Positions 1,656 to 31,845 of a stretch of DNA of 64,000 nucleotides are shown here, one piece after another. The translations under genes and the position numbers were made by a program. The stretch is taken from positions 6,391,001 to 6,455,000 of the forward strand of contig NC_134679.1 of the NCBI RefSeq assembly GCF_024713945.1, written 5' to 3'. The stretch is from Dermatophagoides farinae. Lineage: Eukaryota > Arthropoda > Arachnida > Sarcoptiformes > Pyroglyphidae. Positions within the stretch are counted from its first letter, which is position 1. The number at the start of each line of letters is the position of its first letter. Under the pieces are notes generated by a model, which ran no database searches, was not told where the DNA came from, and worked only from the letters and a program-made list of their open reading frames with translations.

Positions 1656-3285
1656 CTATGGAGTTATCATGCCGAAAGGAACACCAATTACGCTGTTTAT
1701 ACCACATTTATTCTGTCCACGGGGCAAATATAGATAGCCATTTATTCCCCAATTCAAGCCTGTTAGAATAATAAAAACAAGACAATTAGTCTGAAAAACA
1801 AATGTCCAACAAAATACAATACCCCAACTATTTTTAATGATCCAATATTGTTTTGTCCATCCAGTTATAACAATAGCATGACTTAATTTTTTACCACATT
1901 GTGCTCGAAATACGCCTTTATTATGTTTCCATTCTTTTCCACTGGCATCAACGGCAGCAAACACTGGTCCATGTTTCAGAATGAAACGTTGAATAAAATC
2001 ATCTGTATTGTATACATCGTCACACCAATTTACAATTCTATAATTGATTTTTGATTTTGGATATGCTTTGCAGCCTCCAGTATACTATTTTAAGAAAGGC
2101 AAAAAAAAATGAATAAATCGACTGATGATCAATTGAATAATGTAATTGACAACAACTTACCATGCTCATGTATGGTGCATCTTCTTCATCAACAATACCT
2201 TGATGTGCCATAGTCATCCAAGCTTGTGTGGGCCAACCACCTGTACGACAAACATCCGGATTCATACAATCCAATATGGCCTGTTCACTTATATCAATTT
2301 CTTCTGGTTTCAAATTTGTTTTACCATGAATCAAATATGCACTTTCAACAACAGCAACAGCTGAAAAAATGAAACAACTACCGCATATAAATTGTTGTTT
2401 TATAGGTGTAACTTTTCCTTTTTCATTCCAATCAAATTCATCGGGAATCACCACAGGTCCAGGATCAATACACGATGTTGATGATGTAATATTCTTATGT
2501 TGGGCATTATTATTATTATCCAATTTAAGTGGTTTATTATATAATTCCTTATTCAACATTTGTTTGTATTCATGGTCGCTCTTTTTTTTTGAAAAAAATT
2601 TTCATTAATGAAAACAAAATTCATACAATTACAAAATCATCAACATACCAAATGTGATAACGTCGTAATGCCCATGACCATTTGTTCTTCATATGGTGAA
2701 ATCAAACATTTTTGTATTAAATGTAATAAAGTTTTTACATTTTGTACAAATATTATCAAACGTTGACGAATTTCAAATTTACTGTCCGACAAAAACAGAT
2801 GATCATGATCACCGCTAGTCTAAAAAAAAGAAATCATCTGAGAAAAAAAATCGAATCGAATGTTTTTTAGGATTTATACTTACAAAATAATCATAAATTA
2901 CATCATGTAATGGCATTTGAAATAAATTCAATTGACGATCACCAAATTCACTGCTATAACATTTTTCCAATTTATTCAAATCAGTTTTATTACCAATATC
3001 ATGTATCAGATCGACAACCGTATCCAATAATTTCATACGAATGCCGTGAATAACTTTTTTTAAAATTTTAAATCCAGCTGGTAATCTGGTTATAATATGA
3101 TCCGCTGGTTCGTCTTTTGTGGAATTGCCATTTTTAGCATTCACAAACAAATCATTATTCTGAAGATTTAAAAATGCAAAAACAATCAATAAAATTTTTA
3201 TCAATGTCCAATTCATAATTTTTTCGATGTTGATGTGATGATTGATGTGGCAAAAGAACAACAAGAAGAAGAAGAATGATTTCAT
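1656..3285 (-). CDS. Papain-family (C1A) cysteine protease, Der p 1-like, copy 1
   Basis: Five exons: 2884-3285, 2649-2819, 2161-2580, 1823-2084, 1656-1759; 452 aa. Seen: oxyanion Gln and catalytic Cys in QQFICGSCF, catalytic His in LSHAIVITGW, catalytic Asn in IIKNSWG, then a WGINGYLYL strand. The triad is therefore complete. The usual CGSCW is CGSCF here. The pro-region contains an I29-like stretch (FEIRQRLIIFVQN and a later HLSDHEYKQML), preceded by about 110 extra residues not found in Der p 1 (320 aa). Two starts are possible: 3285, or the ATG at 3216 that begins MNWTLIKILLIVFAFL, a better signal peptide. Expected to be a secreted, self-activating digestive-type endopeptidase. It lies head-to-tail with a second copy 172 bp away, so the pair arose by tandem duplication. 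Whether it is allergenic or inhibitory cannot be read from sequence. Confidence 0.9.
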
Positions 3286-3457
3286 TTAGACATTTATTGA
3301 TTGCATTTTATATTTCACACATTAGATTTAAATTTGAAATTTGAAATTTTCATTGAATTGAATGTCATCATATTCATAATGTCAATGTGTAATATTCAGG
3401 TAAAATGTCAATGATGTGAAATTTTAACATTTAATTATTAATTTGATTATCAAATGA

Positions 3458-5125
3458 TCAGATGAATTCTCTTTCGACCACCAAACCAATCGGTGCTGCT
3501 ACAATCCAACCAATACCACAATTATTTGGTTTATTTTTTGACAAATACAGATAGCCATCGATTCCCCAATCTTTGTTCCAGCTATTTTTAATGATCCAAT
3601 TTTTTCTAGTCCAACCAACAATAACGATTGAATGATGTAAATGTTTTCGTGATTGCCGACAAGAACCATGATAAACGCCACGTAAAAATTGAAATCGTTT
3701 ATCGAATGCAGCAGCACCAAATATTGGCCCATAACGTATTATTGCAGCCATTATTTCTTCATTCGAATGAACACGTTGATAATTGAAACAAAAATCTTTA
3801 ATACGAAAACGTACTGGATAATTATTATGACATTTTGATGGCTATAATAACAAAAAAATAAAAAAATCAAAGTTTTATACATGAAAAAAAAGAATACACA
3901 TCACATACCTTATTGTTATATGGTTCTAAATGTTCATAAGTAATTCCTTCATTTCGTAAAAAATTAAATAATTTTATCACACTAGATCCATGACATTTTC
4001 CCACACAATTGACAACATGTTGTTCACTAAGATTAATGTCACCACCATGACCATGATGATGATGAGGCTTAACTTTATTCATCCAAATTTGATCATCATC
4101 ATCATCGTTGAATGATGAATATTCATAATGACGACTAGAACGTCTATAACGTTGTCGTTGCTTTTGTTGTTTTCGTAGAATAAGACTTTCAACAGTTGAA
4201 ATCGATGCAAATGCATAACATGATCCACATGTTGCTTGATTTTTTACACTTGTTACAATACCTTTGCGACGCCAATCAAATTTTTCGGGCAATTTTCGTT
4301 GTTGATTCCATTCAAAATTACATGATCTAAATAATCGTGGAACCATTGTTGTTGTTGTTATTGCTGCTGCTGCTGTTGTTGTTGATGGTGTTGTGGTGGT
4401 GGTGGCGATGGAATCATTTTCATTTATCAATTCATCAAATTCATGTAAAAGATGAAAATTTGAAAGTGCATTCATCTCTTCATCAGTATATGCCGATAAT
4501 GGTGTTATACCTAAAACAGTATGTTCATTGGCAACCATTGTAGTTTCATTCTGACCATTCATTCTTTGATGGATACATTCATGTATCATGTGTACAAGAT
4601 TGACCATATTATGAACAAATGATAAAATACGTAACGGAATTTGATATTTTGGTATATCATCAAATATTGATGATTGATTCTATTAGAAAAAAAACAGAAG
4701 AAAAATTTCGCTGATTTTAATTTTAATAATAATAATAATAATAGACTTACGAAAAATTTTTCCACAACATAATGTATATCAATATCCGTATTGAATAGAT
4801 TCAATTCTTCATCACCATAATGTGGATTATAACAATATTTTAAATGCGATAAATGTTCCATTAGAATTTGTCGACGTTTTTTCCATATTGAATTGATTCT
4901 TTTTCTCAAACGTGGTAATAACCAATTGCCAACATATTGAATTATGTTGTAGCCATCATTTGTTGTTGTTGTTGTTGTTGTATAGAATTCTTTATCGGTA
5001 ATATTCGACGACGATATTGTCGATTGTTGTTGTTTGCTTGTCATCACCATCAATAACAATGACAATACAATGGTCAATATTATTGATGTGGTGGTGGTGG
5101 TGGTGGTAATCTTTTCACCATACAT
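3458..5125 (-). CDS. Papain-family (C1A) cysteine protease, Der p 1-like, copy 2
   Basis: Three exons, 4751-5125, 3909-4679 and 3458-3841, give 509 aa; all introns are phase 0. Seen: NQATCGSCY (oxyanion Gln, catalytic Cys, with Tyr replacing the usual Trp), [10 protein letters not shown] (His) and [18 protein letters not shown] (Asn). The active site looks whole. Odd: a roughly 50-residue basic, then Asp-rich, then His-rich insertion sits between the active-site helix and the [11 protein letters not shown] segment. A Thr/Ala-rich linker lies just before the mature domain, which starts near LPEKFDWR. The N-terminus has a hydrophobic run ([15 protein letters not shown]) after a Thr stretch, read as a signal anchor or signal peptide. 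The first ATG was chosen. It shares a clear paralogous layout with its 3' neighbour but has fewer introns, so the two are not recent copies. Confidence 0.88.
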
Positions 5126-5674
5126 GATTTATTTATTTTTATCAATACAACACGTTATTTATGAATCAATTTTCTTATTTCAAATCAAATCTTCCGAATA
5201 ATCAACATCATCATCATCATCATGTGTTTATGATTTTTTTTTCATCAATTTTCTTCTGGTTGACATTTGGTTCAATTGGATGCGACATCAAACAAAAAAA
5301 AAATTAAATTCAACCATGATTAGCGGTGATGACAACAAAACAAATGTGCAATTTCAATTGAAATTTGTTGACATTCAAGATTTTGGCGACATTTATCGTT
5401 GTTTTTGACATTTGTCTGATACTACGGCGTAATCATCCGCGGTAATATTTACACCGAAAATAAAATAAATCGATCAATTAATTTGATTACGAGAAATATT
5501 TTTTTTTTCGTTACAACAACAACAACAAAACAAAACAAAAACATTTAAAAAGAACAGATTTGGTTGTTGAAACATTTTGTTGTTGTTTTTTTTTGGATTA
5601 GAAATTTTTTTTTTAATTTCTAAATACTGAGCGCTTGTTTCTCACTTTAGCTACTACTATTGGCGACAACAAAA
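5126..5674. promoter_or_regulatory. Divergent intergenic region between protease 2 and receptor-like gene A
   Basis: About 550 bp without coding potential separates the start codons of the minus-strand protease and the plus-strand gene A, so it must hold both promoters. I see no confident TATA box. The last 40 bp carry a short element (tactactattggc near 5652-5664) that recurs before gene B (near 7511) and, in altered form, before gene C (near 9311). Confidence 0.4.
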
Positions 5675-7321
5675 ATGATGATGAAATTCAACCATTGGAC
5701 ATTTATCATTGTTGAGATAATTTTAATGACGATGATGATGACAATAATTGCAAGTGAAATACAAACGGCAACAAATGACAATGATTTGGCATGGATTTTG
5801 ATACCAGAAGATGTAAGTTTTTTTTTGTTTTTTGTTTTTTTTTTGCAAAACCATTCCTACCTGAAACTGAACTTTTTTTTGTTGTTTCCCCAATATAAAT
5901 TAGAAAATTTGTGAAAGTATCAAGATGCAACAAAACAATAGTAAATTGAACATATTGGCCATTGGAACAACACGAACACGAATGTTATTGATAACGAATG
6001 ATTACTATGTTTATGATTTACCTGTCGATTCGATGGATACTGTTAATAATAAATTGAATCTATTAGAAATGCCTAAACCGATAACGGAAAAATATCCACA
6101 TCTTTATCAAGATAAACGATTTCAATATATGAAATCATCAAATTTGATTTACACTTCATTCATCATGACTGATGCTAATAGTGAATGGATTTGCATCACA
6201 ACTTGGACTAAACAAACCATGAAACGTGGTGTTAATTATGATATGAAAAATGCAATAACATATTATGGATGGAAAATACTTGAAGTAAAAGAAATGATAA
6301 TCATTTCCACTACTGAACAATGTAAACTTTATGGTATAAAAATAAATGGAAATCTTAAAATAGCTGATGTAAAATGTGAAGAAAGAGATAGTAAAATTAT
6401 ACGACATGTAGAATATTTGGGAACAGATGAATTAATAAACTCTTTGTGTTATCATAAAACCGACACACAGATGATCACCATAGAATATGATGAATGTGGT
6501 TCAAAAAATCCAGTACAATGGCCAATATTGAATGGTTTTGTTGCAGGAAGAAAATTTTATTTATTAGGCAAACATTTTATCTATATATTTAGTGAGGATG
6601 CTTATTACAAAAAAGGTCAACCATATCCGGTGACAAAATTGGATTATAATTCATTTATCAATTGTATATCAACTATTCAACCAAAATCAAGTAAAATAAT
6701 GTCATATCCACGTAAGTAGGTAGTGAGTGTGTGTGTGTGTGTGTTTAATTTGAACACTGTTGTGATCATTAATGTTGTTGTTGTTGTTGTTTTTTCTTTT
6801 GTAAAATCAATTTAAAAGTTTTGAATAAAATTTTAAACTGGATTACAATAACGATCATTATATTATCGTTGATTCTGATGCAAATTTGGTTCTCTATAAT
6901 TGGCACTTTTTGCCGTCGTCGTCATCGTGGACGATCAGCAACAACAACAACAACAACAACCGTAACCGATAAACCATCATCATCATCATCATCATCATCA
7001 GTGTTACAAAAACAACCACAAGAAAAGACTGAATGTTCCAAAATATTGCCCATGTCCTCTGCCTACTGTTCTTCATATCCTATGACGGATGTTAAAAGTA
7101 TACGATCAACAAGTCAACAACAACAAGTACCATTTTCATGTATACAAAATACAACAAAACTTAATACATCAGTGGATGGTGGTGGTGGTGGTTTTGGTGG
7201 TAATAGTAGTTGTAATGGTGGTGCTCTTGAATCAGGAATTTCTTCCACTGACATTTCATCATCATCATTAAGTGTGAAAAAATTTTCAACACATTTTTCT
7301 CATCTAAATGATGGAAAATAA
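5675..7321 (+). CDS. Receptor-like type I membrane protein A (tandem family member 1 of 6)
   Basis: Exons 5675-5812, 5904-6711 and 6819-7321; 482 aa. Exon 1 encodes a signal peptide beginning MMMKFNHWTF. Exon 2 encodes an ectodomain of about 270 residues with seven cysteines in the family pattern: CESI, WICIT, EQCKLY, VKCEE, LCYHK, ECGSK, INCIS. Exon 3 starts with TM segment NWITITIIILSLILMQIW and a stop-transfer CRRRHRGR, then a Thr/Ser/Gly-rich tail of about 130 residues. Intron phases are 0 and 1, as in all six copies. The ATG at 5675 is used because the frame upstream has only a TTG. I do not recognise the family. The last part of exon 2 (RKFYLLGKHFIYIF) resembles a hemopexin-type propeller blade (inference). 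A and B form a subgroup whose tails lack the basic motif block of C-F. Confidence 0.85.
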
Positions 7322-7569
7322 AAAAATTTTCATTTTTTTTCAAAAACCAATTTTTTCATTGTTTCATACACAGAAAACATAAATTGTGATTTATTATGAT
7401 TTGATTAATTGAAATTTTTTTTTTTGTTCGATCCATAACAATACAAAATGAAAATATTGAAAAAAGCGAATTGGATTGAAACTTGTTGATATTATGCAAG
7501 TTTGGAGTACTACTATATTGGCCAAAAGAAATTCACCTGATGTTCATAAGAATTCCACGAACGAATTCA

Positions 7570-9224
7570 ATGATGATGAAATTTCAAATTTCAACATCAT
7601 TCATCATTATTGTTGAAATTTGTATGACAATGATTGCAAATGTAATACAAACGATTGACGCTGATTCTGGTTTGATTTTCGTACCAACAGATGTGAGTTT
7701 GAATTAGATTTTTTTTTGTTTTTTCATTATTAACCAAAAAAATTTTTTTTGTTTTGTTTTTGTAGAAAATTTGTGAAAGCATCAGAAAACGTGATGGTAA
7801 TAAATTGAACATTTTTGCCATTGGAACAACACAAACACGATTATTATTGATAACCAATGATCTATATGTTTATGATTTACCTATCAAAACAATGGATACC
7901 AATATAGATGTATTAAATTTTTATATAAAATCTGATACGATGGCAGAAAAATATCCAATTCTTTATAGAAATGAAACATTTCAAAAGTTAATGAAACAAA
8001 ATCAAATTTACAATTCATTCATCATGACCGATGCAAATAGTGAATGGATTTGTATGACAACAAAACAAACAGAAAGTATTGTTAATGGTATTAATTATGA
8101 TTTAAAACATTCTCATGTATATGATGGATGGACAATCAGTATTGAAAAAGATGTAGTAATAATTTCCACTATTGAAAAATGTAAATTTTATGCAATCAAA
8201 GTAAAAGGAAATGTTGAAATAGCCGATATGCTTTGTGAAGAAGTAAATTATGTTAATAGACAACATGATGATATGTTAAGAGTATCACCATTCTTAAAGT
8301 TATGTTATGATAAAACAGATAGTGAAAAAATTATTAGTGAAAAATTTCAATGTCAATCTGGAAATCCAGTACAATGGCCAATATTAAAAGGTTTTCTTGT
8401 TGGTGGAAAATTCTATTTATTTGGTGAACATTTTATCTATATAATCACTGAAAATGTTTTCGTACATAGAAATCATCCATATCCGGTGACAAAAATTGAT
8501 TACAATTCTTTTTTCAATTGTCCAGGCACTATACAACCTATACCTAGTAAAATAATGTCATATTCATGTAAGTATTATCTGTGTGTTTAATTTGAATTGT
8601 TCGATTAATAATGTTGTTTTTTTTCTCTTGTGTGTGTGTGTAAAAGTGTTGAGTAGAATTTTGAACTGGATTTCATTTGTAATCATTATATTATTGTTGA
8701 TTCTGATAAAAATTTGGTATTCCATAATCGGTACTTGTAGCCGTCGACGATCAACAACAACAAACGTAACTGATCGACCACCATCATCATCATTGTCAAA
8801 ACAACAAGATAAAAGCAAATGTTCCAGTTCCAGTTTGAAAGAACAATCAAAAAATCCTTCCACCAAAATATTGTCTACACCTTCGTTTTCATTCTCATCA
8901 TCGAGTAAAGCGGATATTAAAAGTTTAGAACCAAAAAGCCAACAACAACAACAACAATCATCAAAACCACAAAATGTAACAAAACTTGAAAGAAAAATTA
9001 GTACAACAATGATTTCTCGTTGCGGTAGTGGTAGTAGTATTGGTGGTGGTGGCTTTAGTTCTTCAACATCTGAAATTGGATCAAGAATTTCTAGCAACAA
9101 TTTATCATCATCAAGTGTTGGAAATTGTTCCACAAATGATTCTCGTTTGAAAGATGGTAAAAATAGCATCGCTCCATCATCTACTTCTTCTTTACATGAT
9201 AAGACAAAATCAAAAAAATGTTAA
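7570..9224 (+). CDS. Receptor-like type I membrane protein B (tandem family member 2 of 6)
   Basis: Exons 7570-7692, 7766-8567 and 8647-9224; 500 aa. The exon boundaries and phases (0, 1) are the same as in gene A. Signal peptide in exon 1 (MMMKFQISTSFIIIVE). Ectodomain with the seven family cysteines and the diagnostic NPVQWPILKGF followed by KFYLFGEHFIYIIT. TM NWISFVIIILLLILIKIW, then CSRRRS and the longest tail of the array, rich in Ser, Gln and Lys. It is closest to gene A by exon 2 (FIMTDANSEWIC, NIFAIGTTQTR) and by the TM flank. Only 248 bp separate it from the gene before, so each copy brings its own short promoter. Function unknown; probably at the cell surface. Confidence 0.85.
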
Positions 9225-9472
9225 TTTCTCACATAAAATATGTGGCATATAAATGATGATGATATGAATTTGAAATTTTTTTTTTCATTCAATAAAAATT
9301 CAATTCTCAGTACTACGGCCAATAATGGATAATTTGATTTTTTTTATTCGAATTTTTTTTGTTGTTCCAATTTCCTATATATTCCATAACGAAACCAATG
9401 AAAATGTTGAAAATTTTGAACGATTTTTTTTTGAATTTTCGGTGGTTTTTTCTCCTATTACTACTACTACTA

Positions 9473-10969
9473 ATGCTACTGTCACATTGGACGTTCGATT
9501 TTTCGACATCATTTATGGTTATTGGTGTTTGTATAATTCTAATGATGATGACAAATGAAACACAAACAGATGATGATGATAATAAAATGACAACAACGGC
9601 ACAGCCAAAAGATGTAAGTTGTTTGTTTTGTTTGAAATTTATTTGCGATTAATGAATGATTATTTTTTTTGTTTCGACTACTAAGGAAACTTGTGAAACT
9701 CTTCATAACCATAATGGTACAAAATTGAACATATTGGCCGTAGGTAGAACACCAACACGTTTGATATTGATAACAAATGATTTCTATGTTTATGATGTGT
9801 CCATTGATTCAATTGATTCGGCAATCAATAAATTATATTTACGTACTAAACCAATTCCATTGTCGGAAAAATATCCAGTTCTTTACAATAATGATAGATT
9901 TTATTTTATGAAATTGATGAATCAAATTTATGGTGCATTCATTGCAACGGATGTTGATAATAGTGAATGGATTTGTATGATGACTTGGGCATATCAAACA
10001 GCAGAATATGGAATTAATTTTAATATCGAAGAAAATAAAGTATATAAAGGATGGTTGTATTTTCGTGAACCACAAATAGTAATGATTTCAACTACTGTTA
10101 CATGTGCATATTATGTTTTACATAAAAATAATTATGGAAATGTTCAAATAGGCATGTTCAAATGTATGGGAACTAATCGTATCAGAGATAAAGCACCTAT
10201 GTATCAAATGATAGAATATAGAAACTTTTGTTATGATTACAGTGGCCAAAAGATTACTGTTGAAAGCGATGGATGTCGATCAGCGAATCCAGTACAATGG
10301 CCAGTATTGAAAGGTTTTACAGATAGTGGAAAATTTTATTTATTCGGTCAATATTATATCTACATATTTGATGAAAATGTGGTTCATGAACAAGGTTCTT
10401 CATATCCAGTGACAAAACGTAGTTATGATTCTTTTTTCAATTGTGGTGGTTACATTCCTTCTGGTCAAGTTTCACGTTCATGTAAGTACTTTTTATTCAA
10501 TTGATTTATGACAAAATTTTTCCTTAAAATCTGATTTTTTTATTCTAAAGTTTTCTTATGGATTATTGCAACAATCATCGTTTTATTAATGATTTTGATG
10601 ATAATTTTATGGTGTATACTGACAACTAAACGTAAACGAACATATCGATCATTGATACATGCAAAAACTACACGTTCTGATTATGAAGGTGTGGGACCAA
10701 GAAATCGTTCCATGATGTTGACTCAAAAGGCATCAATGAGAAGTTGTAATAGTATAAAACCAAAAAAATTATCTTCAAATTCTAAAAGTATCATCAAACC
10801 ACCAATTGTTGGTGGTGGCCGATCAACAACAATTTCATGTGGATCAACACCTGCAACCGTTCGCACTGGTTTTAATTGTCGTAATGCTAGTAGTAGTAGT
10901 AATAACAATCTGAATAATAATCGATTTAAATGTTTAACACCCAAAATTCAAAGTAGTAGAAATAGATGA
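9473..10969 (+). CDS. Receptor-like type I membrane protein C (tandem family member 3 of 6)
   Basis: Exons 9473-9613, 9686-10481 and 10551-10969; 451 aa. The start is placed at 9473 because MLLSHWTFD aligns with the HWTF of gene A and recurs at the starts of E and F. An upstream in-frame ATG at 9398 would add 25 residues. Ectodomain begins ETCETLHNHNGTKLN and ends FFNCGGYIPSG, with seven cysteines. TM FFLWIIATIIVLLMILMIIL. The tail is basic and Ser-rich, with the subgroup blocks HAKTTRS, PRNRSMMLT, KKLSSNSK, STPATVRTGFN and RFKCLTP. Several RxxS/T contexts could be sites for basophilic kinases (inference). The central ectodomain differs strongly from D, E and F, although both ends match closely. 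Confidence 0.84.
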
Positions 10970-11275
10970 TAGAAAGAACACAACACAACACAACACGGAT
11001 TTCAATTGAACAACAACAACAACAACAACAAAAAATTAATCAATTTATAATTAATTAACACAACAAATTTAAATTTATTTTTTTTCGTCGTTTTCATTAA
11101 TCGATAATTTGATTTTTTTATTCGAATTTTTTTTTTACAATTTTCCATATATATGCTATAACACGTAATAAAAATGAAAATGTTGAAAATTTTGAACGAT
11201 TTTTGTTTTTGTTTGGTAAACTCGAATTTTTTGGTTTCCTATTACTCCTACTTTACTACAAATAAATAACCACGA
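10970..11275. promoter_or_regulatory. Upstream block shared by receptor-like genes C and D
   Basis: This gap of about 306 bp lies before gene D. From about 11103 it repeats the sequence before gene C (from about 9324): a GATAATTTGATT stretch, a T-rich run, an ATATAT element, then AAAATGAAAATGTTGAAAA. The match shows that the duplication unit included the promoter. No other feature is seen. Confidence 0.5.
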
Positions 11276-12784
11276 ATGATATTGTCAAATTGGACAATCA
11301 ATATTCAAACACTTATTATTATTATTATTGATATGTGTACGATATTAATGATGATGATGGCAAATGAAATACAAACAGATGATTTCAAATTGACTACCAA
11401 TGCACCAAAAAAAGATGTGAGTTGTTTGTTTGTTTGTTTGAATAAATTTTTTACTATTTTTTTTTTTTTTGTTGCAAAGGAAATCTGTGAAAGTATTCGA
11501 AAACGTAATGGTACTAAATTGAACATATTGGCCGTTGGTAGAACACCAACACGAATGTTATTGATAACGATGGATTTCTATGTTTATGATGTGCCTATTG
11601 ATTCAATTGATTCGGCAATTAATAAATTATATTTACGTACTAAACCGATTCCAATGTCGGAAAAATATCCAGTTCTTTTCAATGATCAAAGATTTCAACA
11701 AATTAAGAATGTAATATTCAATTCATTCATAATGACCGATGCTGATAGTGAATGGATTTGTATAACTACTCGACGTTCTGAGACGGATTATCATGGAATT
11801 AATTATAACATCCTACATCCTTTTGTTTTTCAAGGATGGGTATTTAACTTTCAATGGAAAGAAGTATTGATTTCAAGAATTGAAATATGTTTATTCTATG
11901 GTTTACGCCATAATAATCAAGGGAATCTTGAAATGGCTAGTTACAAATGTTATCATAGTAATCATATACGGAGTGGAAATTCAATAGGTTTGGCAAAAGG
12001 TTACCGTTCTATTTGCTTCGACAGTACTGGCCAAAAGATTTCCATCGAAAACGATGGATGTCAATCAGGAAATCCAGTACGGTGGCCAGTATTGAAAGGT
12101 TTTACAGATGGTGGAAAATTTTATTTATTCGGCGAATATTACATCTACATATTTGATGAAAATATCTTCAACGAAGAAGGTTCAGCTTATCCAGTGAAGA
12201 AACGTAATTATGATTCTTTTTTCAATTGTGGTGGTTACATTCCTTCTGGTCAAGTTTCACGTTCACGTAAGTTGATGTGTTGATTAAGATTTTAAAAATT
12301 TCTAAATTCTCTTTCACTATATATTAAAGTTTTCGTTTGGATCGTTGTGATAATCATCGTATTATTAATGATTTTGATGATGATTTTAATGTGCATACTG
12401 ACGGTTCATCGTAAACGAATTCATCGATCATCGATCATACATGCAAAAACTACTCGTTCTGGTTTTGAAAGTAGTATTGTTAATGGTGGACGACCATCAA
12501 ACAATCGTTCCATGATGTTGTCAAAAATAGCTTCTATGAAAAGTGGCAATAGTATGAAAAAATTATCTTCAAATTCCAAAAATATCACTAGCAATAAACC
12601 TGGTTCGATTTCCCGTAGAACAATTGGTGGTAGCCGAGCAGTAATTTCATGTGGATCAACACCTGCTACCGTTCGTACAGGTGTCGATCGTGGTGCAAAC
12701 AGTGGTGTCAATAATACCAATTCTAATAATAATCGATTCAAATGTTTAACAACAACTAGAAATCAAAGTAGTCGATTTAGATGA
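11276..12784 (+). CDS. Receptor-like type I membrane protein D (tandem family member 4 of 6)
   Basis: Exons 11276-11416, 11480-12266 and 12330-12784; 460 aa. Signal peptide MILSNWTINIQTLIIIIID. Ectodomain with seven cysteines (EICESI, EWICITT, EICLFY, YKCYH, SICFD, DGCQSG, FFNCGG). TM FVWIVVIIIVLLMILMMILM, then a basic HRKRIHRSS flank and the C-F-type tail including STPATVRTG and RFKCLTT. The first half of the ectodomain is nearly the same as in F (MSEKYPVLFNDQRFQQIK). The second half (CQSGNPVRWPV, FGEYYIYIFDENIFNEEG) is nearly the same as in E. This mosaic suggests gene conversion within the array. Confidence 0.85.
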
Positions 12785-13100
12785 TATAAGATCATCAGCT
12801 GATCATCAAATTTCACAAAAAAAAATCAAAATCAATCAATTTTGATCATCAATTATGACAAAAATTAACCAAATAATAAATAAACTTATCTATGAATAAT
12901 AATGATCGAAATCAATTCACAATCAACAATTTATTCGATTCCATTATTCACAATTCTACAATAATTTGATTATTTCAATTTCTTGAGAGCAAGAATTTAA
13001 TTGAAAACATTAAAAATATGGAAAATTGGTCAAGCTTCCATGAGTTCAAGTTTTATTTTTTAAATTTTGTTGGCTAGTTACCAGAACCACCTGAATGCAA
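12785..13100. other. Intergenic gap between receptor-like genes D and E
   Basis: About 316 bp of AT-rich sequence with no open frame worth naming. It must contain the 3' end of D (AATAAATAAA near 12876) and the promoter of E. The stretch just before E (GTTGGCTAG near 13069) recalls a GTTGGCTCA near 14803 before F, suggesting a shared promoter in those two copies. Confidence 0.35.
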
Positions 13101-14642
13101 ATGCTACTGTCACATTGGACATTCGATATTTCATTGTCGACATTTATGGTTAGTGTTTGTATAATTCTGATGATGATGACAAATGAAACACAAACAGATG
13201 ATGATAATAAAATGACAACAACGGCACAGCCAAAAGATGTAAGTTGTTTGTTTGTTTGAAATTTATTTGCGATTAATGAATGATTATTTTTTTTTGTTTC
13301 ACTACTAAGGAAACTTGTGAAACTCTTCATAACCATAATGGAGCTAAATTGAACATATTGGCCGTAGGTAGAACACCAACACGAATGTTATTGATAACGA
13401 TGGATTTCTATGTTTATGATGTGCCCATTGATTCAATCGATACGGCTATCAATAAATTATATTTACGTACAAAACCAATTCCATTGTCGGAAAAGTATCC
13501 AGTTCTTTACAACAATGAAAGATTTCAACAAATTAAGGATATAATTTTCAATTCATTCATAATGACCGATGCTGATAGTGAATGGATTTGTATAACTACT
13601 CAACTAACTACAACGAAATTAAATGGAATTAATTATAACATCAAAGATCCTCTTGTTATTGTAGGATGGATATTCAATTTTCAATGGAAAGAAGTATTGA
13701 TTTCAAGAATTGAACCATGTTTATTCTATGGTTTACGCCATAATCAGGGGAATCTTGAAATGGCTAGTTACAAATGTCGTGATGGTAATCGTGTGCGGAG
13801 TAAACAACCAATAGGTTACGTAAGGGGTTACCGTCCTATTTGCTTTGACAGTACTGGCCAAAAGATTACCATCGAAAGGCATGGATGTCAATCAGGAAAT
13901 CCAGTACGATGGCCAGTATTGAAAGGTTTTACAGATGGTGGAAATTTTTATTTATTCGGCGAATATTATATCTATATATTTGATGAAAATATCTTCAATG
14001 AAGAAGGTTCATCGTATCCAGTGAAGAACCGTAGTTATGATTCTTTTTTCAATTGTGCTGGTTACATTCCTTCCAATCAAGTTACACGTTCACGTAAGTT
14101 GATTGTTGATTAAGATTTTATGACAAATTTTTTTTTTAAATCAACTTTTATTTTCCATTAAAGTTTTTTATTGGATTATTGCGGCAATCCTATTATTACT
14201 ATTGATTTTGGTGATGATTTTGTGCTGTATATTAGAGGCTCATCGTCAACGATCATATCGATCATTGATACATGCAAAAACTACACGTTCTGGTTATGAA
14301 GGCGGTGGTGGTGGTGGACCAAGAAATCGTTCCATGTTGTTGACTGAAAAAGCTTCAATGAGAAGTCGTAATAGTGTGAAACCAAAAAAATTATCTTCAA
14401 ATTCTAGAAGTGGTTCAACTAAACCCCCCCTTGGCATGGTTAATGGCAGTACAACAGTTGGTGGTGGTGGCCGATCAACAACAATTTCTGGTGGATCAAC
14501 ACCTGCAACCGTTCGCACTGGTTTCAATCGTCGTGCTAGTAGTAACAATCCTAATAAATTTAAATGTTTAACACCACGAAGTAATCGAAATCGGTCATCA
14601 TCAACACGTCATTCAAGTTCAAGAAAAAATTCTGCAAAATAA
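13101..14642 (+). CDS. Receptor-like type I membrane protein E (tandem family member 5 of 6)
   Basis: Exons 13101-13238, 13310-14093 and 14164-14642; 466 aa. Exon 1 (MLLSHWTFDISLSTFMV) and intron 1 are nearly the same as in C and F. The ectodomain has the seven cysteines. Its N-terminal part resembles C and F, while its middle (FNFQWKEVLISRIE, LRHNQGNLEMASYKC) and end resemble D. TM FYWIIAAILLLLLILVMILC. The tail is the fullest version of the basic block, with a poly-Gly run, PRNRSMLLT, KKLSSNSRS, STPATVRTGFNRRASS and a final Arg/Ser stretch. Function unknown. Confidence 0.85.
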
Positions 14643-14861
14643 AAAAAAAATAGAAGAATAAATAAAAATGAATTAATGAATTAATTTAATTTGATTCAAA
14701 CATTTTTTTTCTTTCACTCTCGGTCCACATAGCCACCAGCCATAACAACAATACATGTAGAGAAAAGTACAAAATACGAAAATTGTTGATGAATTTTTTT
14801 TCGTTGGCTCATGTTTTTTTTTTATTAGTTCCATACACACGCGTATACCCATAGAACGCTA

Positions 14862-16332
14862 ATGCTACTGTTCGATATTTCGACGACATTTATGGTTAGT
14901 GTTTGTATAATTCTAATGATGATGACAAATGAAACACAAACAGATGATGACGATAAAATGACAACAACGGCACAGCCAAAAGATGTAAGTTGTTTGTCTG
15001 TTTGAAATTTATTTGCGATTAATGAATGATTATTTCTGTTTCACTACTAAGGAAACTTGTGAAACTCTGCATAACCATAATGGCGCTAAATTGAACATAT
15101 TGGCCGTTGGTAGAACACCAACACGAATGTTATTGATAACGATGGATTTCTATGTTTATGATGTGCCCATTGATTCAATCGATACGGCTATCAATAAATT
15201 ATATTTACGTACTAAACCAATTCCAATGTCGGAAAAATATCCAGTTCTTTTCAACGATCAAAGATTTCAACAAATTAAGGACGTAATTTTCAATTCATTC
15301 ATAATGACCGATGCTGATAGTGAATGGATTTGTATAACTACTAAAAGTTCTGAAACGAGATATCCTGGAATCAATTATGACATCAAAAATCCTAATGTAT
15401 ATTATGGATGGAAATTCTTTGATTATTGGCGAGAAGTATTGATTTCAACAATTGAAACATGTATATACTATGCTTTACGTCATAATCAAGGAAATCTTGA
15501 GATTACTCGTTACCAATGTCGTGGTGGTGATCGTATACGGACTAGACCACGGATAATTCGATTGATGAGTTTTCGTCCTATTTGCTTTGACAGCACTGGC
15601 CAAAAGATTACTGTCGAAAGACATAGATGTCGATCAGCGAATCCAGTACGATGGCCAGTATTGAAAGGTTTTACAGATGGTGGAAAATTTTATTTATTCG
15701 GTCAATATTACATCTACATATTTGATGAAAATGTTTTTCGTGAACAAGGTTCTTCATATCCAGTGACAAAACGTAGTTATGATTCTTTTTTCAATTGTGC
15801 TGGTTACATTCCTGCCGGTCAAGTTTCACGTTCACGTAAGTTTTTTGTTGAATAGAATTTATGATAAATTTTTTTTTTTAAATCCAATTTTTCTTCCACA
15901 ATTAAAGTTTTCTTATGGATTATTGTGGCAATCTTATTATTGCTATTGATCTTGTTGATGATTTTATGGTGTATATTAGCAGCAGCTCATCATCATCGTC
16001 GTCATCGATCATCATTATCGTTGGATAAAAAAACGGCACGTTCAGGTTTCGAAGGCGGCGGTGGCGGTGTTGGTGTTGGACCACCAAGAAATCGTTCCAT
16101 GATGTTAACACATGGACTTTCTATGAGAAGTCGTTTGCAAACAAGAAAATTATCTTCAAATTCTAAAAATATCACTACTAAACCAGGTGCAGTTTCCTGT
16201 ACAACAGCCGTTTCTGGTCGATCAATGCCTGCAACCGTTCGCACTGGTTTCAATCATCGTGCTAGTAGTAACAATCCTAGTAATCGATTCAAAAGTTTAA
16301 CACCCAGAATTCAAAGTAGTCGAAATAGATGA
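14862..16332 (+). CDS. Receptor-like type I membrane protein F (tandem family member 6 of 6)
   Basis: Exons 14862-14984, 15052-15835 and 15908-16332; 443 aa. Exon 1 lacks the SHWTF residues seen in C and E, so its signal peptide is shorter (MLLFDISTTFMVSVCIILMM). The ectodomain keeps seven cysteines. Its N-terminal half matches D, the middle is its own (FFDYWREVLISTIETCIYY), and the end matches C (CRSANPV, FGQYYIYIFDENV, VTKRSYDSFFNC). TM FLWIIVAILLLLLILLMILW, then an HHHRRHRSS flank and the C-F-type tail in shortened form. It is the last array member; the next plus-strand gene is unrelated. Confidence 0.85.
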
Positions 16333-16696
16333 TAGATTTTAATTACACACAAAAAAAAATTCAATTTCAAAATCAATCATCAATCAATTTAAAACCTCAA
16401 TAAACGCAGCAAATCTACCACTTTTCATTTACTGTAAAATTTTTGGATTTTATTTTTTTTGCAAAAATTTTCCAACAAATTTCTTTAGCAACAAAAAAAA
16501 AAAGAAACTTTTTCCTTCTGATTACTAATGATCATCATAAATTTATCACCAATCATAATTGACTCATTTTTTTTCACATAATCTGATCATGATGCTTGAT
16601 TTTAAAAAAAATAATTAAAAATCGAGAAGCAAATTTTTTTCATTTAACAAATTTTGTTTCTGTCATCATAATTTTCGATTTTTGAAAAAAATCAAT
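16333..16696. other. Gap between the receptor-like array and the RCC1-BTB gene
   Basis: About 360 bp, very AT-rich, with an AATAAA near 16399 that may end gene F. No gene or recognisable motif is seen. It must contain the promoter of the next gene. Confidence 0.35.
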
Positions 16697-18302
16697 ATGG
16701 ACCAAACGAATGACTTGACATTATGGCCAATACTACGCCGGATTCCAATTGATTTTCTACACATTACTGATCGTTTCTATATTTTCAATAATGGTGAATC
16801 ATTATTATTATTTTGTCGTAATGGAAAAGTATATGGATATGGTAGAAATCCTTACGGTATGTTGGGTGTTCCATTTGATGATTTGAGACAAAAATATTTG
16901 GGATTATTACGTTTTTATTGTTGCAATAATCATCATTCATCATCATGTCCATTCGTGAATGAACCACGTGAATTGACAAAGCTACGTTTTATCAATATAA
17001 TTGCATTATCTAAAGGCGATAAACATATGATGGCATTATCGGAATTCGGTGATCTTTATGGCTGGGGTGCTAATCATTCTGGCCAATTAGGTATTGGCTG
17101 GTATCGTATGGGCGCATCGGAACCGACATTGATTTTACATGATGTACAAAAAGTATGTTGTGGCCCAAAACATACTGTTGCATTAATTATGGACGGATCA
17201 ATCCGTATTTGGGGCAAATTTCCTGGTTGTCCACATAATTTTACACCTGAACGCTTGATACGTTCACCATCATCAATGATTGATTTGATTACGACAAAAT
17301 TTCTAACTATTGCTTATAATAATTGTTTCGATGATAATGATAAAGGTGCATTCTATGTTTGGGGAGATTTAAAACATTTTGGTAAGTTTTTATTGTCGCC
17401 CATAATAACAATAATATTAATTATATTCAATTTAATTCTCAAAATCAGGTTTATCTGGATCATCATCCACTGTTCGTTTAACATATAAACGTAGTGATTA
17501 TTCGAAAATTTTCAAAATAATTCCAATTGGTGCTAATAAAATAATGGTACTCACACAGGAAGGACATGCAAGTATAGTGGCCATACAAAATGAACGTGTC
17601 CGATCTATACGTAATCCATTTCGTTCGATTGATTTTATTGATTTTTGTATCGATATTCCTGAAGATCCTAATGTTGCTATTATTCGTACTAGTGATTCAT
17701 GTGGTGGTGAATGTTTTGTTTGGGATGATAATGATAATCGCCAATCACCATCTGGTAATAGCCGTAATAATTTATTTTCAACAAAAATTGGCTCATTAGC
17801 CGATACAACATGTCTTTATTCATCGGCATTCACACCACAATTAACACGATTACCACCAAAATTACTTTCGATCGATTTTCAAACAACAAACAAAACAGTT
17901 AATCATTCACATTCAATTTTTGAATTCAATGATCCACGTGAATCGGATCTGATTTTTCGTTTCAAACATTATCAATCGAAACCAATCTATGTACATCAAA
18001 CAGTGTTGATGAAATATTCAAATTATTTTTATTGGAAATTATCAACAATGTCCAATAACACTAATAATGGTGGTAGCCAAATAATGACCATCATGATTGA
18101 TGATCAAACTGCTTATATATCAATGTTTACATATCTACGTTATATTTATACGAAAAAAATTTCATTCAATCAATTCGATGATAAAATGATTTCCGAAATG
18201 TATCATTTATCATGTAAATATTCGGATCAAGAATTTATTGGCCAAATTATTGATCATCTTTATGGCAAAATTTCACATTATCATCATCAGCCACATTCAT
18301 AA
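16697..18302 (+). CDS. RCC1-repeat and BTB-domain protein
   Basis: Exons 16697-17381 and 17449-18302 (phase 1 intron); 512 aa. RCC1-type repeats are visible as GKVYGYGRNPYGMLGV, GDLYGWGANHSGQLGIG, GSIRIWGKF and GAFYVWGDLKHFG, i.e. the start of a propeller with degenerate later blades. From about residue 388 a BTB fold follows (DLIFRFK, IYVHQTVLMKYSNYF, then MFTYLRYIYT). Known of the family: RCBTB-like proteins combine a propeller with BTB-mediated dimerisation, some as CUL3 adaptors. That role is only inferred here. The ATG at 16697 (MDQTNDLTLWPILRR) is the first in frame. A paralogue with the similar N-terminal LSLWPCLRH lies at 55567-57186 on the other strand. Confidence 0.82.
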
Positions 18303-22501: not shown

Positions 22502-22572
22502 TGTTCGAATTGGAATGAAAAAAAGGAAAAAAAAATCAATGTAAACAAAAAAAATGTTGAAAAAAATTAAAA

Positions 22573-22860
22573 TAATGACGAACAATCAAAAATGATCGTG
22601 AATAATGGTGATGATCGTGTGTTTTCTCCGAATATTTATACGATTTCTTGGACCGTCCAACTGCCAATCGGTTAAGACCACGCCTCACGTTGATAACCAG
22701 CTCAATCTGTCTTTCACGTGGGCCATGTGTTCAGCTTGTTTCGCTACTCATGTATCAGGCCCGGCTTGTCCTTGCTTGAAATAGTAGAAAAGTTTCCAGA
22801 AAATAAAAGTGGTGTACAGAGCATTAACCAATAGAATTGGAGAGTTTTGGCGGTTAATTA
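22573..22860 (-). promoter_or_regulatory. Zinc-finger promoter cassette, left arm
   Basis: A block of about 288 bp upstream of zinc-finger gene 1. Its inverted copy is at 24270-24558, in front of zinc-finger gene 2. A related copy lies before the topoisomerase II fragment at about 28190-28485, and that copy is repeated at 38232-38527. It contains TATAAATA (minus strand), an E-box-like CACGTG near 22708 and a TTGATAACC element. Conservation between copies is high through noncoding sequence, supporting a shared regulatory unit, though a dispersed repeat is also possible. Confidence 0.6.
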
Positions 22861-22889
22861 AAAAACAAAATTCTTCTTTTTCTTTGGAT

Positions 22890-23640
22890 TAATTACCCCT
22901 CTTTTTTCCTTATCTTGATGACATTAATTCGTGTGTGTGTTGGTTTTAATAACCTTTCACGAGAAAAAACAAACAAACGAACGAACGAGCAAAAAACACA
23001 AAGATGAATCTTTTTCTTTTGTTTGTTGTTTACGACAATGAAGAAAAAATATTCGAAAAAATTGAAACAACAAAAAAAAATTTTTCATTATCACACACAC
23101 TTGTTGCACACACACTCAATATATTTTTCTTATCACTAAAATTTTTTTCGTTATTTTTCAATCGAGTTTTTTCTTCTTCAAATTTCCTGTCCACACACAG
23201 CAAAATAAAAGTCAAAGTCAAAGTTTTTGAAGAAAAATAAAAATCAAATGTATCATTTATTTATATGAGAAAAAAATGAATTATCAAGGGAGTGTGTTTT
23301 GGACTGGAAAAAATTACTGAATCTTTGATAGACAAAAATAAGGCAGGCAATCTGTAGGAAAAACATGGAAACCAATTTCATTGATGAACTTATCCATATC
23401 CTTTGCTTATTGTGTATTTGAATAATAATAATGAGAATAAAGCATAATCTATCTATTTGCAACAGTATCCAAAACATTATCAACGCTCGGAATATCACAT
23501 TTGGACCTATCGACAACAACCAAACATTGGACATGGTTGAACGTTTAAATTGTGTGCTCTTTATCATCAAGCAGTTTGTCGTGATATCAACAAACAATGT
23601 ATAAACCGAGTATTCAAGAAAAAACCATCAAGAATTCCTT
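22890..23640. repeat. Dispersed repeat block with fossil retroelement gag-like piece
   Basis: The block from about 22861 onward recurs at about 28486-29220 and 38528-39262, and in part at about 30480-31020 and 40522-41062. Its first part (about 22900-23100) also occurs inverted at about 29690-29930 and 39732-39972. The right part (about 23380-23610) matches the gag-like portion of the LTR-retroelement fossil at 30.8-31.8 kb. It is old and broken, and I do not assign a complete element. Confidence 0.5.
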
Positions 23641-24256: not shown

Positions 24257-24269
24257 AATTCGCCAGCCA

Positions 24270-24558
24270 ATTAACCGCCAAAACTCTCCAATTCTATTGG
24301 TTAATGCTCTGTACACCACTTTTATCTTCTGGAAACTTTTCTACTATTTCAAGCAAGGACAAGCTAGGCCTGATACATGAGTAGCAAAACAAGCTGAACA
24401 CATGGTCCACGTGAAAGGTAGATTGAGCTGGTTATCAACGTGAGGCGTGGTCTTAACCGATTGGCAGTTGGACGGTCCAAGAAATCGTATAAATATTCGG
24501 AGAAAACACACAATCATCACCATTATTCACGATCATTTTTGATTGTTCGTCACTATTT
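24270..24558 (+). promoter_or_regulatory. Zinc-finger promoter cassette, right arm (inverted)
   Basis: Reverse complement of 22573-22860 with a few mismatches. TATAAATA is at 24489-24496, about 210 bp before the ATG of zinc-finger gene 2. The E-box-like site is changed to CCACGTGA context near 24410. The two arms make the two zinc-finger genes head-to-head and form a palindrome with a loop of about 1.4 kb. Confidence 0.6.
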
Positions 24559-24707
24559 TAAACAATTATTTTGTGCTATTTTTTTATTTTTTCATTATTT
24601 TCATCATTTTTTTTGTGCCATTTTTTTTATTTTTTCATTTTTTTCATCATTTTTTTTGTGCCATTTTTTTTTATTTTTACATTTATTTTTTTATTCAAAT
24701 TTTAACA

Positions 24708-25553: not shown

Positions 25554-26284
25554 TAATTCATCTACACACACACACATATATATTGACATTTTTTTGTTAT
25601 TTTTCATTGTTAATTACATTTTTAATTATAAAAAGTAAAATAAATATGGCAATTTGTCCAAAATTTGTTTTGTTTCTGTCTTTATTTTGGTTGCATGAAT
25701 GAAATTGTGTCGTATGAAAAGTTTATCTCAATGCTCAACGTATTCCTTTCTTTCTTTTAGATAACATACAAGATTAGTAAATCAAGAACATCATCAAATG
25801 CTGATTTATTACCATCATTAATTAGTAAAGTAGTGATGGACCAAAACAATCGAAACTTAGTGATCATGGTCAAATTATGGATGAAATAACCGCTAAATGT
25901 TGATAACATTGTGTTACATTTTTGAAATGTATGATGATGAATCTTTTCTAATTCTTGTTGTTTCCAAATTCAATTAGAATTATCGCTGATATGAATAGTG
26001 TTGAAAATAAAAACATCATCTGTATAAATTGAACTATGATTATAAGTTAGAAGTTCTAGAAATTTCTAGTACTATTTAAATATATATATGTAACATTTAA
26101 AATCCAAAACATGATTGTTTTGGAATGTTAATGATCAAAATTGTGATGTTTGAATATTTTAAATGAAATGTTCGACTTTGATTTAATGAATGTTATATAA
26201 TAACTTAATTAATGTTTCAAATTGATTGTAATCCAGTATATAAACCCATCCTAAATTATCATTATCCATCGAGTGTCTGGGATC

Positions 26285-26715
26285 TATGATCTGTGTATAC
26301 TTGATCAATAAAGCTTTATTTTATCCACAAATATTTCAATAGTGTTCAATTCCCAATCATGACTGCGAACGTATTATCGATGTGATAATCATTACGATGT
26401 TATGGACATCGTAGATTTTTATATATATAAATGAAAATTGTCTTTACTAATTGTATCAGATTTTGTCATTTCAATAAATGCAATTATCGATCGATGATCG
26501 TATATTTTTTGAATAAAATGATTGTTTGCAATTTTTATTTTTACATAAGAAAAATAGAAATATAATAACGTTCGTGCAACGGTTAAGAAGAAAAACTTTG
26601 TTGGTCAACTAATTAATAAGAAAGAACTCGATCGAAAAATAATGAAAAAAATTTTAATGATTATGTTGATAAAAAAATATACATTGATTAATATACAAAA
26701 AGTGTGTGAGTGTGT
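26285..26715. repeat. LTR-like dispersed repeat, copy a
   Basis: A block of about 430 bp recurs at 29254-29672 and, through the segmental duplication, at 36327-36757 and 39296-39714. It begins beside a TATA-like TATATAAACCC (26240s) and includes AATAAAGCTTTATTTT, a layout that recalls the promoter and polyadenylation part of a long terminal repeat. Family and exact ends are not certain. It is a fossil repeat. Confidence 0.45.
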
Positions 26716-26825
26716 CTTTCATTAATCAAATATAAGTTGTAAACAAATCTGCGTACATAAGAGAATATGATGATTGAGATCGATGATAATTATTGGTTTA
26801 ATATTCTTCATCTGATGATGAATTA

Positions 26826-28114
26826 TCATAATCGACCAGTTTGTTGAATGCTACCAGTTTTCGATAATTCTTTTGATAACACAGCTTCAGCGATACCAAC
26901 TTTATAAATTTTGTGTACGAAATTGGTACTTGGTGAACAGGTAGAACCGAAACGTTCCACCTTTAATGTCATTGTTTCATTTTTTGGCGAATCAAATTTA
27001 GGATTTTCAATCCAACAATTGACAAACACCCAAAGATGATTACGTATTTGTGATGGTTCCACATTGATGCCAACTTGATTTTCCGTTTTAATAACTTCGG
27101 CCACTTTATTGACAATTTGATCGGTTAAATGATCAACATGTTTACCGCCACGAGTGGTTGCAATGCCATTAACAAAACTGATTTGTTGGAATCCATTATT
27201 GCTAACGGTGGCAGCAATTTCCCATCGATCATTGACTTTTTGATGGACAACTTTGATATCATTACCAATTTCATCTTGACGATCTTTGACAAAAAGTTTG
27301 ACATAATCTTTGAAACCGCTGATGGGTAATTTTTTTCCATTAAGATATACATTTACATCACGCGTTGTACCGGCAATATCGTATGCTCGTCGTGAGAATA
27401 ATGCCACAATATCTTTATCAAGACGATTCATTTTAAATTGCGATAAATCAGGTTTAAATGATATACGGGTAAAATCTTCAGCTGCATTCGCACCGATTTT
27501 AGGATCCTTTATCTTCGTCATATTTTTTTTCCAAATTTGTGAAAATAATTTTTGATATTCTTTGCTTGAAGTTTGTACTTTGAATTTCGTACTGAAAGTG
27601 TTACAGTGTTTGGCTTTAAAACCATTACGACCACCGACCAGTTTTTTCTCTTCGTCATCATAACAATTTGATGGTGTCAATACAGTATCGAATATCAATG
27701 TTGGTACATAGCATTCTTCCGTTTCATGTTCAAACACAGGAATTCCTTTACCATTATTATAAATGGTTATTTCGTTGCGATCGCTACCGTAGTATATATA
27801 TAGAAAAAAAACAAACAAAATCAATTTAAATCAATCAATATACAAGACATAATCATATGACACTTACACATCAATATCTATTCGTATACAATCCATTGAT
27901 TCATCTCTCTGTTTATTATCGGCAGCATTGACAAGTATTTCATCAAATATTTTATACAATAATGGAGCATATGTAATTTCACGGTATACCATTTTTTCTT
28001 GATCACCATCCCAGACCCACATTTGCTATCAAATGTAAAAAAAAAATTTGAATATAGAAAAATTATTCAAGTTATACAAACAAAACAAACCTTTGTCACT
28101 TTTTGCTTATCCAT
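26826..28114 (-). CDS. Truncated topoisomerase II ATPase-domain gene, copy 1
   Basis: Exons 28091-28114, 27868-28025 and 26826-27783; 379 aa. The protein starts MDKQKVTK, then runs through type IIA topoisomerase N-gate sequence: QMWVWDGDQ, FDEILVNAADNKQRD (N-box with Glu and Asn), IYNNGKGIPVFEHE, GGRNGFKAKHC, DKDIVALFSRRAYDIAGTTRDV, FQQISFVNGIATTRGGKHVD. It ends soon after FGSTCSPST. It therefore lacks the first N-terminal segment and everything from TOPRIM onward (the full enzyme has about 1400-1500 aa). In the ATP-binding loop the usual GRNGYGAK reads GRNGFKAK, which may abolish ATP binding. The 5' UTR and promoter are those of the zinc-finger cassette. Intact enzymes relax DNA; this piece cannot. 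It is a possible retained fragment or a processed-looking pseudogene with introns. Best called a chimeric gene of unknown activity. Confidence 0.75.
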
Positions 28115-28189
28115 AGTAGAACCAATATATGTATGTTATGTGACAAAAATTAAATGTAAACAAAAAAAAAGTATAAAATGTTGAAAACA

Positions 28190-28485
28190 ATAATGACGAT
28201 GACGAACAACAATCAAAAAAACGACAATAATGGTGATGATTGTGTCGTTGTCTTGGAAATTTATATGATTTCTTGGACAGTCAAACTGCCAATCGGTTGA
28301 AACCACGCCTCACGTTGATAACCAGCTCAATCTGTCTTTCACGTGGGCCATGTGTTCAGCTTGTTTCGCTACTCATGTATCAGGCCCAGCTTGTCCTTGC
28401 TTGAAATAGTAGAAAAGTTTCCAGAAAATAAAAGTGGTGTACAGAGCATTAACCAATAGAATTGGAGAGTTTTGGCGGTTAATTA
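28190..28485 (-). promoter_or_regulatory. Zinc-finger-type promoter cassette before topoisomerase II fragment, copy 1
   Basis: Matches the cassette at 22573-22860, same orientation. On the minus strand TATAAAT is at 28265-28259, about 145 bp before the ATG at 28114. The 5' UTR region (TTTTCAACATTT, then a T-rich run and TTTGTTTACATT) also matches that of zinc-finger gene 1. This places a truncated host gene under a promoter from another family. Confidence 0.6.
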
Positions 28486-29225
28486 AAAAACAAAATTCTT
28501 CTTTTTCTTTGGATTAATTACCCCTCTTTTTTCCTTATCTTGATGACATTAATTCGTGTGTGTATTGGTTTTAATAACCTTTCACGAGAAAAAACAAACA
28601 AACGAACGAACGAGCAAAAAACACAAAGATGACTTTTTTTTTGTTTGTTGTTTACGACAATGAAAAAAAATATTCGAAAAAATTGAAACAACAAAAAAAA
28701 AAATTTTTTCATTATCACACACACTTGTTGCACACACACTCAATATATTTTTCTTATCACTAAAATTTTTTTCGTTATTTTTCAATCGAGTTTTTTCTTC
28801 TTCAAATTTCCTGTCCACACACAGCAAAATAAAAGTCAAAGTCAAAGTTTTCGAAGAAAAATAAAAATCAAATGTATCATTTATTTATATGAGAAAAAAA
28901 TGAATTATCAAGGGAATGTGTGGTTCGTTTGTAGAAATTAAGAAAAAATTAGTGAATCTTTGATAGACAAAAATAAGGCAGGCAATTTGTAGGAAAAACA
29001 TGGAAACCAATTTCATTGATGAACTTATCCATATCCTTTGCTTATTGTGTATTTGAATAATAATAATGAGAATAAAGCATAATCTATCTGTTTGCAACAG
29101 TATCCAAAACATTATTAACGCTCTTAATATCACATTTGGACCTATCCACAACAACCAAACATTGGACAAAAAATGTATAAACCGAGTATTCAAGAACAAA
29201 ATTCTGCAAATCATGCCGTTTATTT
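28486..29225. repeat. Dispersed repeat block (second copy) with gag-like fossil piece
   Basis: Continuation of the shared block after the promoter cassette, matching about 22861-23610. The right 230 bp match the gag-like part of the retroelement fossil at 30.78-31.02 kb. It joins directly to the LTR-like repeat at about 29254. Broken, old. Confidence 0.5.
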
Positions 29226-29689
29226 AGCGTGATAATAATCAACAAAATGGCTTTATGATCTGCGTATACTTGATCAATAAAGCTTTATTTTATCCACAAA
29301 TATTTCAATAGTGTTCAATTCCCAATCATGACTGCTAACGTATTATCGATGTGATAATCATTACGATGTTATGGACATCGTAGATTTTTACATATATAAA
29401 TGAAAATTGTCTTTACTAATTGTATCAGATTTTGTCATTTCAATAAATGCAATTATCGATCGATGATCGTATATTTTTTGAATAAAATGATTGTTTGCAA
29501 TTTTTATTTTTACATAAGAAAAATAGAAATATAGTAACGTTCGTGCAACGGTTAAGAAGAAAAACTTTGTTGGTCAACCAATTAATAAGATAGAACTCGA
29601 TTGAAAAATAACGAAAAAAATTTTAGTGATAAGAAAAATATATTGATTGAAAATACAAAAAATAGTGTGTGTGTCCAACAAGTGTGTGT

Positions 29690-31800: not shown

Positions 31801-31845
31801 TATTCAAATAGATTTTATGATGATTCAGAAAATTTTCATTAAGAT

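Follow-up and report, generated by a model that had tools for sequence, protein, structure and literature searches.

What do six closely packed genes of the mite Dermatophagoides farinae encode, and do they form a receptor system new to the literature? The genes lie head to tail on the plus strand, three exons apiece, in a tandem array at positions 5675-16332 of a 64,000-nucleotide stretch of contig NC_134679.1 (the whole stretch of DNA analysed, hereafter the window). An earlier reading of the same DNA, made from its letters alone (the original prediction), had taken them for an undescribed receptor-like family. Structural models support a beta-propeller ectodomain, and the overall layout of the predicted proteins resembles that of 4BetaP, a family reported from D. 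pteronyssinus. The sections below set out the evidence for the genes and the fold, the relation to 4BetaP, the variation among the copies and an upstream sequence element that they share.

Six three-exon genes for single-pass surface proteins

Exon ends were set manually, giving one open frame per gene, and the introns predicted from the DNA are GT-AG in 12 of 12 cases, 63-107 bp long, with phase 0 followed by phase 1 in all six genes (Table 1). The open frames and introns bear out the gene order, exon plan and intron phases of the original prediction. Its close packing, put at 220-320 bp, also stands, with stop-to-ATG gaps along the array of 248, 248, 306, 310 and 219 bp once the start of gene 3 is corrected to 9473. 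This start appears more likely than 9398 because gene 5 has the same MLLSHWTF start, and because the gene 4 counterpart of the longer start sits upstream of the first in-frame ATG of gene 4.

Protein identity ranges from 35 to 76% across the 15 gene pairs. It is 53% between genes 1 and 2, 62-76% within genes 3-6, and 35-42% when gene 1 or 2 is compared with any of genes 3-6. The ratio of nonsynonymous to synonymous substitution rates (dN/dS) of the ectodomain is 0.44-0.74 in all 15 pairs, which supports coding status; exon 1, which is short (0.15-1.04), and exon 3 (0.48-1.05) are weaker evidence. By the tests possible on DNA, the six genes are confirmed as real, with predicted splice sites. 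A tblastn search with the six proteins found no seventh copy in the window, all 13 matches outside the array having E >= 0.65.

Two hydropathy peaks were found in each of the six proteins. The N-terminal peak (19-residue mean 2.0-2.25) falls inside the first 30 residues and fits a transmembrane (TM) helix or, equally, a signal peptide, while the single peak after the ectodomain (2.37-3.65) corresponds to one predicted TM helix. The ectodomain exon (exon 2) codes for 261-269 residues and carries seven cysteines at invariant columns in all six genes, in agreement with the original prediction. The tails comprise 115-168 residues, 44-54% of them Ser, Thr, Asn, Gln or Gly, and are net basic, a composition that makes them probably disordered.

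No Pfam family scored above its own cut-off on the ectodomains or exon 3 of any of the six genes, and no NCBIfam family matched the ectodomain. Searches for sequence relatives in the PDB returned none for gene 1 and two chance-level matches (E 0.46 and 0.5) for the six-sequence profile. Together these searches sustain the view of an expanded family of single-pass surface proteins with no named sequence domain. A Pfam match to TcpS in one of the six members (E 0.12) was taken as chance. Viral and prokaryote contigs yielded 123 and 17 pattern stretches, respectively, of which none was confirmed as a relative; these collections hold no eukaryote genomes, and the null result is therefore silent on other animals.

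Predicted fold of the ectodomain

AlphaFold2 was run twice with different query genes (6 and 2) on one shared set of six sequences, and the two models are therefore not independent data. With gene 6 as query the model has a predicted local distance difference test score (pLDDT) of 66.3, a predicted template modelling score (pTM) of 0.63 and 16 strands of at least three residues; with gene 2 as query, cut after the last ectodomain cysteine, the values are 84.1 and 0.85 with 18 strands. Both models are all-beta, propeller-like chains. Foldseek matches to the PDB were considered with E up to 10, as the best 50 of 1379 for the gene 6 model and the best 50 of 1401 for the gene 2 model, and in both cases the majority of these rows carry recognised propeller protein names. 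In the viral fold library, 8 of the 771 matches of the weaker gene 6 model reach E <= 0.001, the names among the 50 listed are mostly WD40, BTB and RCC1, and TMq (the query-based template modelling score) never exceeds 0.35. Structure prediction of an ectodomain had been proposed as a check, and a beta-propeller fold is recognised in the gene 2 model; a propeller ectodomain is well supported by the models. The original prediction had taken the odd cysteine count to leave a free thiol able to link two chains; the invariant cysteine C96 lies within strand 92-100 of the gene 2 model, and the odd cysteine may therefore be buried.

Several observations weigh against this description of the proteins. 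For the gene 2 model, the first matches by E-value are an RCC1-like propeller and a chain of the 90S preribosome. All template modelling (TM) scores against PDB chains are modest (best query-based score, TMq, 0.46) and the gene 6 model is weak. The strand counts of the two models differ, which bears on blade number. Profile self-comparison detected no internal repeats in the ectodomain, at low power (effective number of sequences, Neff, 1.9). The tails show Pfam matches to Tetraspanin (1.3e-4, gene 1) and TMEM9 (6.2e-4, gene 4), both under their cut-offs, and to DUF4834 in three of the six genes (E 0.011-0.54).

The hemopexin domain of matrix metalloproteinases (MMPs; PF00045) is a four-bladed propeller closed by a disulfide from the first blade to the last, and the array ectodomain could be a highly diverged true hemopexin tethered to the membrane, in the manner of a membrane-type MMP without the protease. 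Among the best 50 matches of the gene 2 model, the highest TMq (0.46, root-mean-square deviation (rmsd) 5.8) belongs to the MMP-13 chain 4fu4_A and the lowest rmsd (5.5) to the MMP9 hemopexin domain 1itv_A (target-based score, TMt, 0.52), and among the best 50 of the gene 6 model the MMP-1 chain 2clt_A has the highest TMq (0.42); other hemopexin chains are on a par with WD40 chains (1su3_B TMq 0.33, 1qhu 0.31), a further point against the fold assignment. Both domains have a cysteine near either end, invariant in the array, and the array ectodomain closes with two hydrophobic residues and a cysteine, nearly as in the MMP1 hemopexin domain. They differ in length (~250 residues in the array, ~190 in MMP hemopexin) and in cysteines, of which the MMP1 domain has two and the array ectodomain five more.

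Aligned by hhalign with the MMP1 domain alone, the array family scored 24.5 (P 0.006, probability 6%; 0 of 300 column shuffles as high), the aligned part being the last blade and final cysteine. However, three further hemopexin domains from MMPs gave scores of 15.3, 11.0 and 17.3 with different stretches aligned, a four-sequence MMP profile scored 13.0, equalled in 194 of 300 shuffles and below the reversed alignment (14.1), and HMMER, run such that most matches with E >0.1 were dropped, gave no PF00045 match in any of the six genes. Kinship with hemopexin is not supported by sequence, as the match to MMP1 fails with the MMP profile and the three other domains, and we regard a diverged hemopexin as having only a slim chance of being correct.

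Relation to the 4BetaP family

The 4BetaP proteins of D. pteronyssinus were reported in BMC Genomics in 2025 as a family not described before, comprising at least 119 genes whose expression is 2.7- to 429.7-fold higher in males (PMC12105342). They generally consist of an N-terminal TM helix, a non-cytoplasmic beta-propeller of four blades, at least one further TM helix and a C-terminal domain that is putatively disordered; no further domain was detected, their function is blank, and the germline-expressed Caenorhabditis elegans proteins Q22625 and Q19393 structurally resemble one of them (PMC12105342).

By that description the array is alike in having a predicted N-terminal helix, a predicted extracellular propeller without a known sequence domain, a TM helix, a probably disordered tail of variable length and multiple genes. 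The N-terminal hydrophobic segment, the TM segment after the propeller, the variable-length tail and the lack of another domain are present in six of six array proteins; for the four-blade propeller, the array offers propeller-like models of 16 or 18 strands. The available part of the 4BetaP description makes no mention of a tandem arrangement, of intron phases, of conserved cysteines, of gene conversion between copies or of an upstream element. No second description of the family besides PMC12105342 appeared among the literature matches listed.

On this likeness of layout, we consider it probable that the six genes are 4BetaP members, orthologues or a very close analogue. A five-bladed or other propeller that merely resembles 4BetaP is unlikely. 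The better (gene 2) model has 18 strands, of which those at 169-192 may form a short fifth blade, whereas the gene 6 model has 16, the best TM-scores among the rows listed belong to four-bladed chains, and 4BetaP is described as four-bladed (PMC12105342). Four blades are favoured, short of proof. The novelty claimed by the original prediction stands in that no named sequence domain is present, and is doubtful in that 4BetaP has the same layout as far as described (PMC12105342); the array family is probably already in print and not an unknown system.

Variation and mosaicism among the copies

In genes 3-6 the proportion of nonsynonymous differences (pN) is 0.22-0.44 in sliding windows starting at exon 2 codons 88-165, while the domain is conserved at both ends. 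It exceeds the synonymous proportion (pS) in four of those nine windows and in 5 of 26 overall. We interpret codons 88-175 as blades 2 and 3 in the model built on gene 2, and infer that a conserved frame carries a diversified binding surface. Tempering this view, pS is likewise raised in the variable stretch, up to 0.61, so that the pattern is no proof of positive selection, and age or conversion may account for part of it; positive selection is not shown by pN > pS in just five sliding windows, no dedicated test having been run.

Mosaic structure was analysed on a nucleotide alignment of genes 3-6 with gapped columns excluded. The 89 sites at which the four genes divide two to two fall into three conflicting groupings (40, 30 and 19 sites) arranged blockwise: neighbouring sites agree in 51 of 88 cases against a shuffle mean of 31.2, and the runs test was matched by 1 of 10000 shuffles. 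One tract stands out by its pairing (Table 1). The longest shared runs of gene pairs 3/5 and 3/6, in exon 1 and intron 1, were as long in 0 of 2000 permutations, and those of the other four pairs in 1, 3, 43 and 76 of 2000. We take the blocks as probable traces of gene conversion or unequal exchange.

A candidate shared promoter element

Each of the six genes has the sequence TAATTTGATT on its coding strand, 133-196 bp ahead of the ATG; five of these copies are exact, and that of gene 2 has one mismatch. The element was found by scanning the same upstream regions in which it is counted. The window holds nine exact copies on both strands, five of them these upstream copies, against 2.68 expected, and none of 100 shuffles had as many. 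As a random control, 0 of 200 sextets of 250-bp pieces from elsewhere in the window share any 10-mer at one mismatch. Its presence in six of six genes, set beside this control, suggests co-regulation, with TAATTTGATT as a candidate shared promoter element.

The upstream regions themselves align beyond shuffles for genes 1 and 2, 2 and 3, 2 and 4, and 3 and 4 (0 of 200 shuffles as good in each case), and also for genes 1 and 6 (1 of 200), 2 and 6 (5), 1 and 3 (8), and 1 and 4 (9), and the random-sextet control therefore leaves common descent of TAATTTGATT in play. The region upstream of gene 5 aligns to no other (shuffles were as good in 53 to 120 of 200 cases), yet has the element. As a counterpoint, an 11-base form of the element at one mismatch is not in excess across the window (26 copies against 20.9 expected; 17 of 100 shuffles).

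Table 1 Features of the array, in window coordinates
Feature	Position	Strand	Details
TAATTTGATT upstream of gene 1	5479..5488	+	-196 from ATG, exact
Gene 1	5675..7321	+	exons 5675-5812/5904-6711/6819-7321; 482 aa; GT-AG, phases 0/1, open frame
TGATTTGATT upstream of gene 2	7397..7406	+	-173; one mismatch to TAATTTGATT
Gene 2	7570..9224	+	exons 7570-7692/7766-8567/8647-9224; 500 aa; ectodomain modelled as beta-propeller
TAATTTGATT upstream of gene 3	9330..9339	+	-143, exact
Gene 3	9473..10969	+	exons 9473-9613/9686-10481/10551-10969; 451 aa from 9473; alternative ATG 9398
TAATTTGATT upstream of gene 4	11105..11114	+	-171, exact
Gene 4	11276..12784	+	exons 11276-11416/11480-12266/12330-12784; 460 aa
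TAATTTGATT upstream of gene 5	12962..12971	+	-133, exact
Gene 5	13095..14642	+	exons 13095-13238/13310-14093/14164-14642; 468 aa
TAATTTGATT upstream of gene 6	14687..14696	+	-175, exact
Gene 6	14862..16332	+	exons 14862-14984/15052-15835/15908-16332; 443 aa; ectodomain also modelled
Variable ectodomain stretch (shown on gene 6)	15313..15576	+	~codons 88-175 of exon 2; sliding pN and pS, genes 3-6
Mosaic tract (gene 6 coordinates)	15395..15893	+	two-to-two sites that split genes 3+6 from genes 4+5: 37/46 in the tract, 3/43 outside it

Genomic surroundings

Upstream of the array, two open reading frames (ORFs) with papain-family (Peptidase_C1) matches lie on the minus strand at 2038-4679, and directly downstream, on the same strand as the array, ORFs at 16619-18302 carry RCC1 repeats and a BTB domain. 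Repeated elements include 22551-23533, which has further copies at 28175 and 38217 (94.5%) and of which a part reappears, inverted, at 24269-24561 (96.9%). Two 8.3 kb copies, 26096-34402 and 36138-44444, are 99.95% identical, and either arose by duplication in the very recent past or are an artefact of assembly; they overlap a minus-strand multi-CUB (cubilin-like) gene with EGF domains, and each contains an ORF matching DNA_gyraseB (PF00204; 26826-27830 and 36868-37872). The ORF at 31421-31795 has weak aspartyl-protease matches (PF13650, E 7.8e-6, above cut-off; PF13975 just under), hinting at a mobile element within the duplicated block. Exons of an SLC12-type cation-chloride cotransporter lie on the plus strand at 59725-62969.

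Proposed role of the array

Each product would be a type I membrane protein with a signal peptide or N-terminal helix, bearing outside the cell one cysteine-rich beta-propeller, followed by one TM helix and, on the cytoplasmic side, a tail that is basic and probably disordered. A partner may bind to the variable stretch (codons 88-175), while the conserved first and last parts would close the ring, possibly through a bond between C3 and C252 in gene 2 numbering. The copies might be co-expressed in male germ cells or the male tract and take part in gamete or male-female recognition, with tandem duplication and gene conversion reshuffling the variable part. The likely role, we infer, would be that of diversified male-side surface recognition proteins.

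The original prediction had named host or diet contact among possible roles; the male bias of 4BetaP points more to male reproduction (PMC12105342). There is a small chance that the array is instead a separate receptor family of propeller layout serving gut, immune or host/diet recognition: layout does not fix function, and a variable block in a tandem array may be common among other recognition receptors, but the one mite family found with such a layout, 4BetaP, is male-biased in at least 119 genes (PMC12105342). Doubtful, too, is a more far-reaching proposal, by which mites would have a lineage-specific system for recognition between gametes or mates: tandem copies of a propeller receptor, with one shared regulatory element and variable blades swapped by gene conversion, would provide reshufflable male surface labels.

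The published 4BetaP family tempers the notion of a wholly undescribed receptor system, and the array is ordinary insofar as a family of the same layout, probably reproductive, is already published. Its interest lies in a family that is large, functionally blank and probably reproductive. To it the present analysis adds models of the genes, a pattern of conserved cysteines, a candidate promoter element and evidence that copies have exchanged sequence, and these details of the array render a role in mite reproduction testable.

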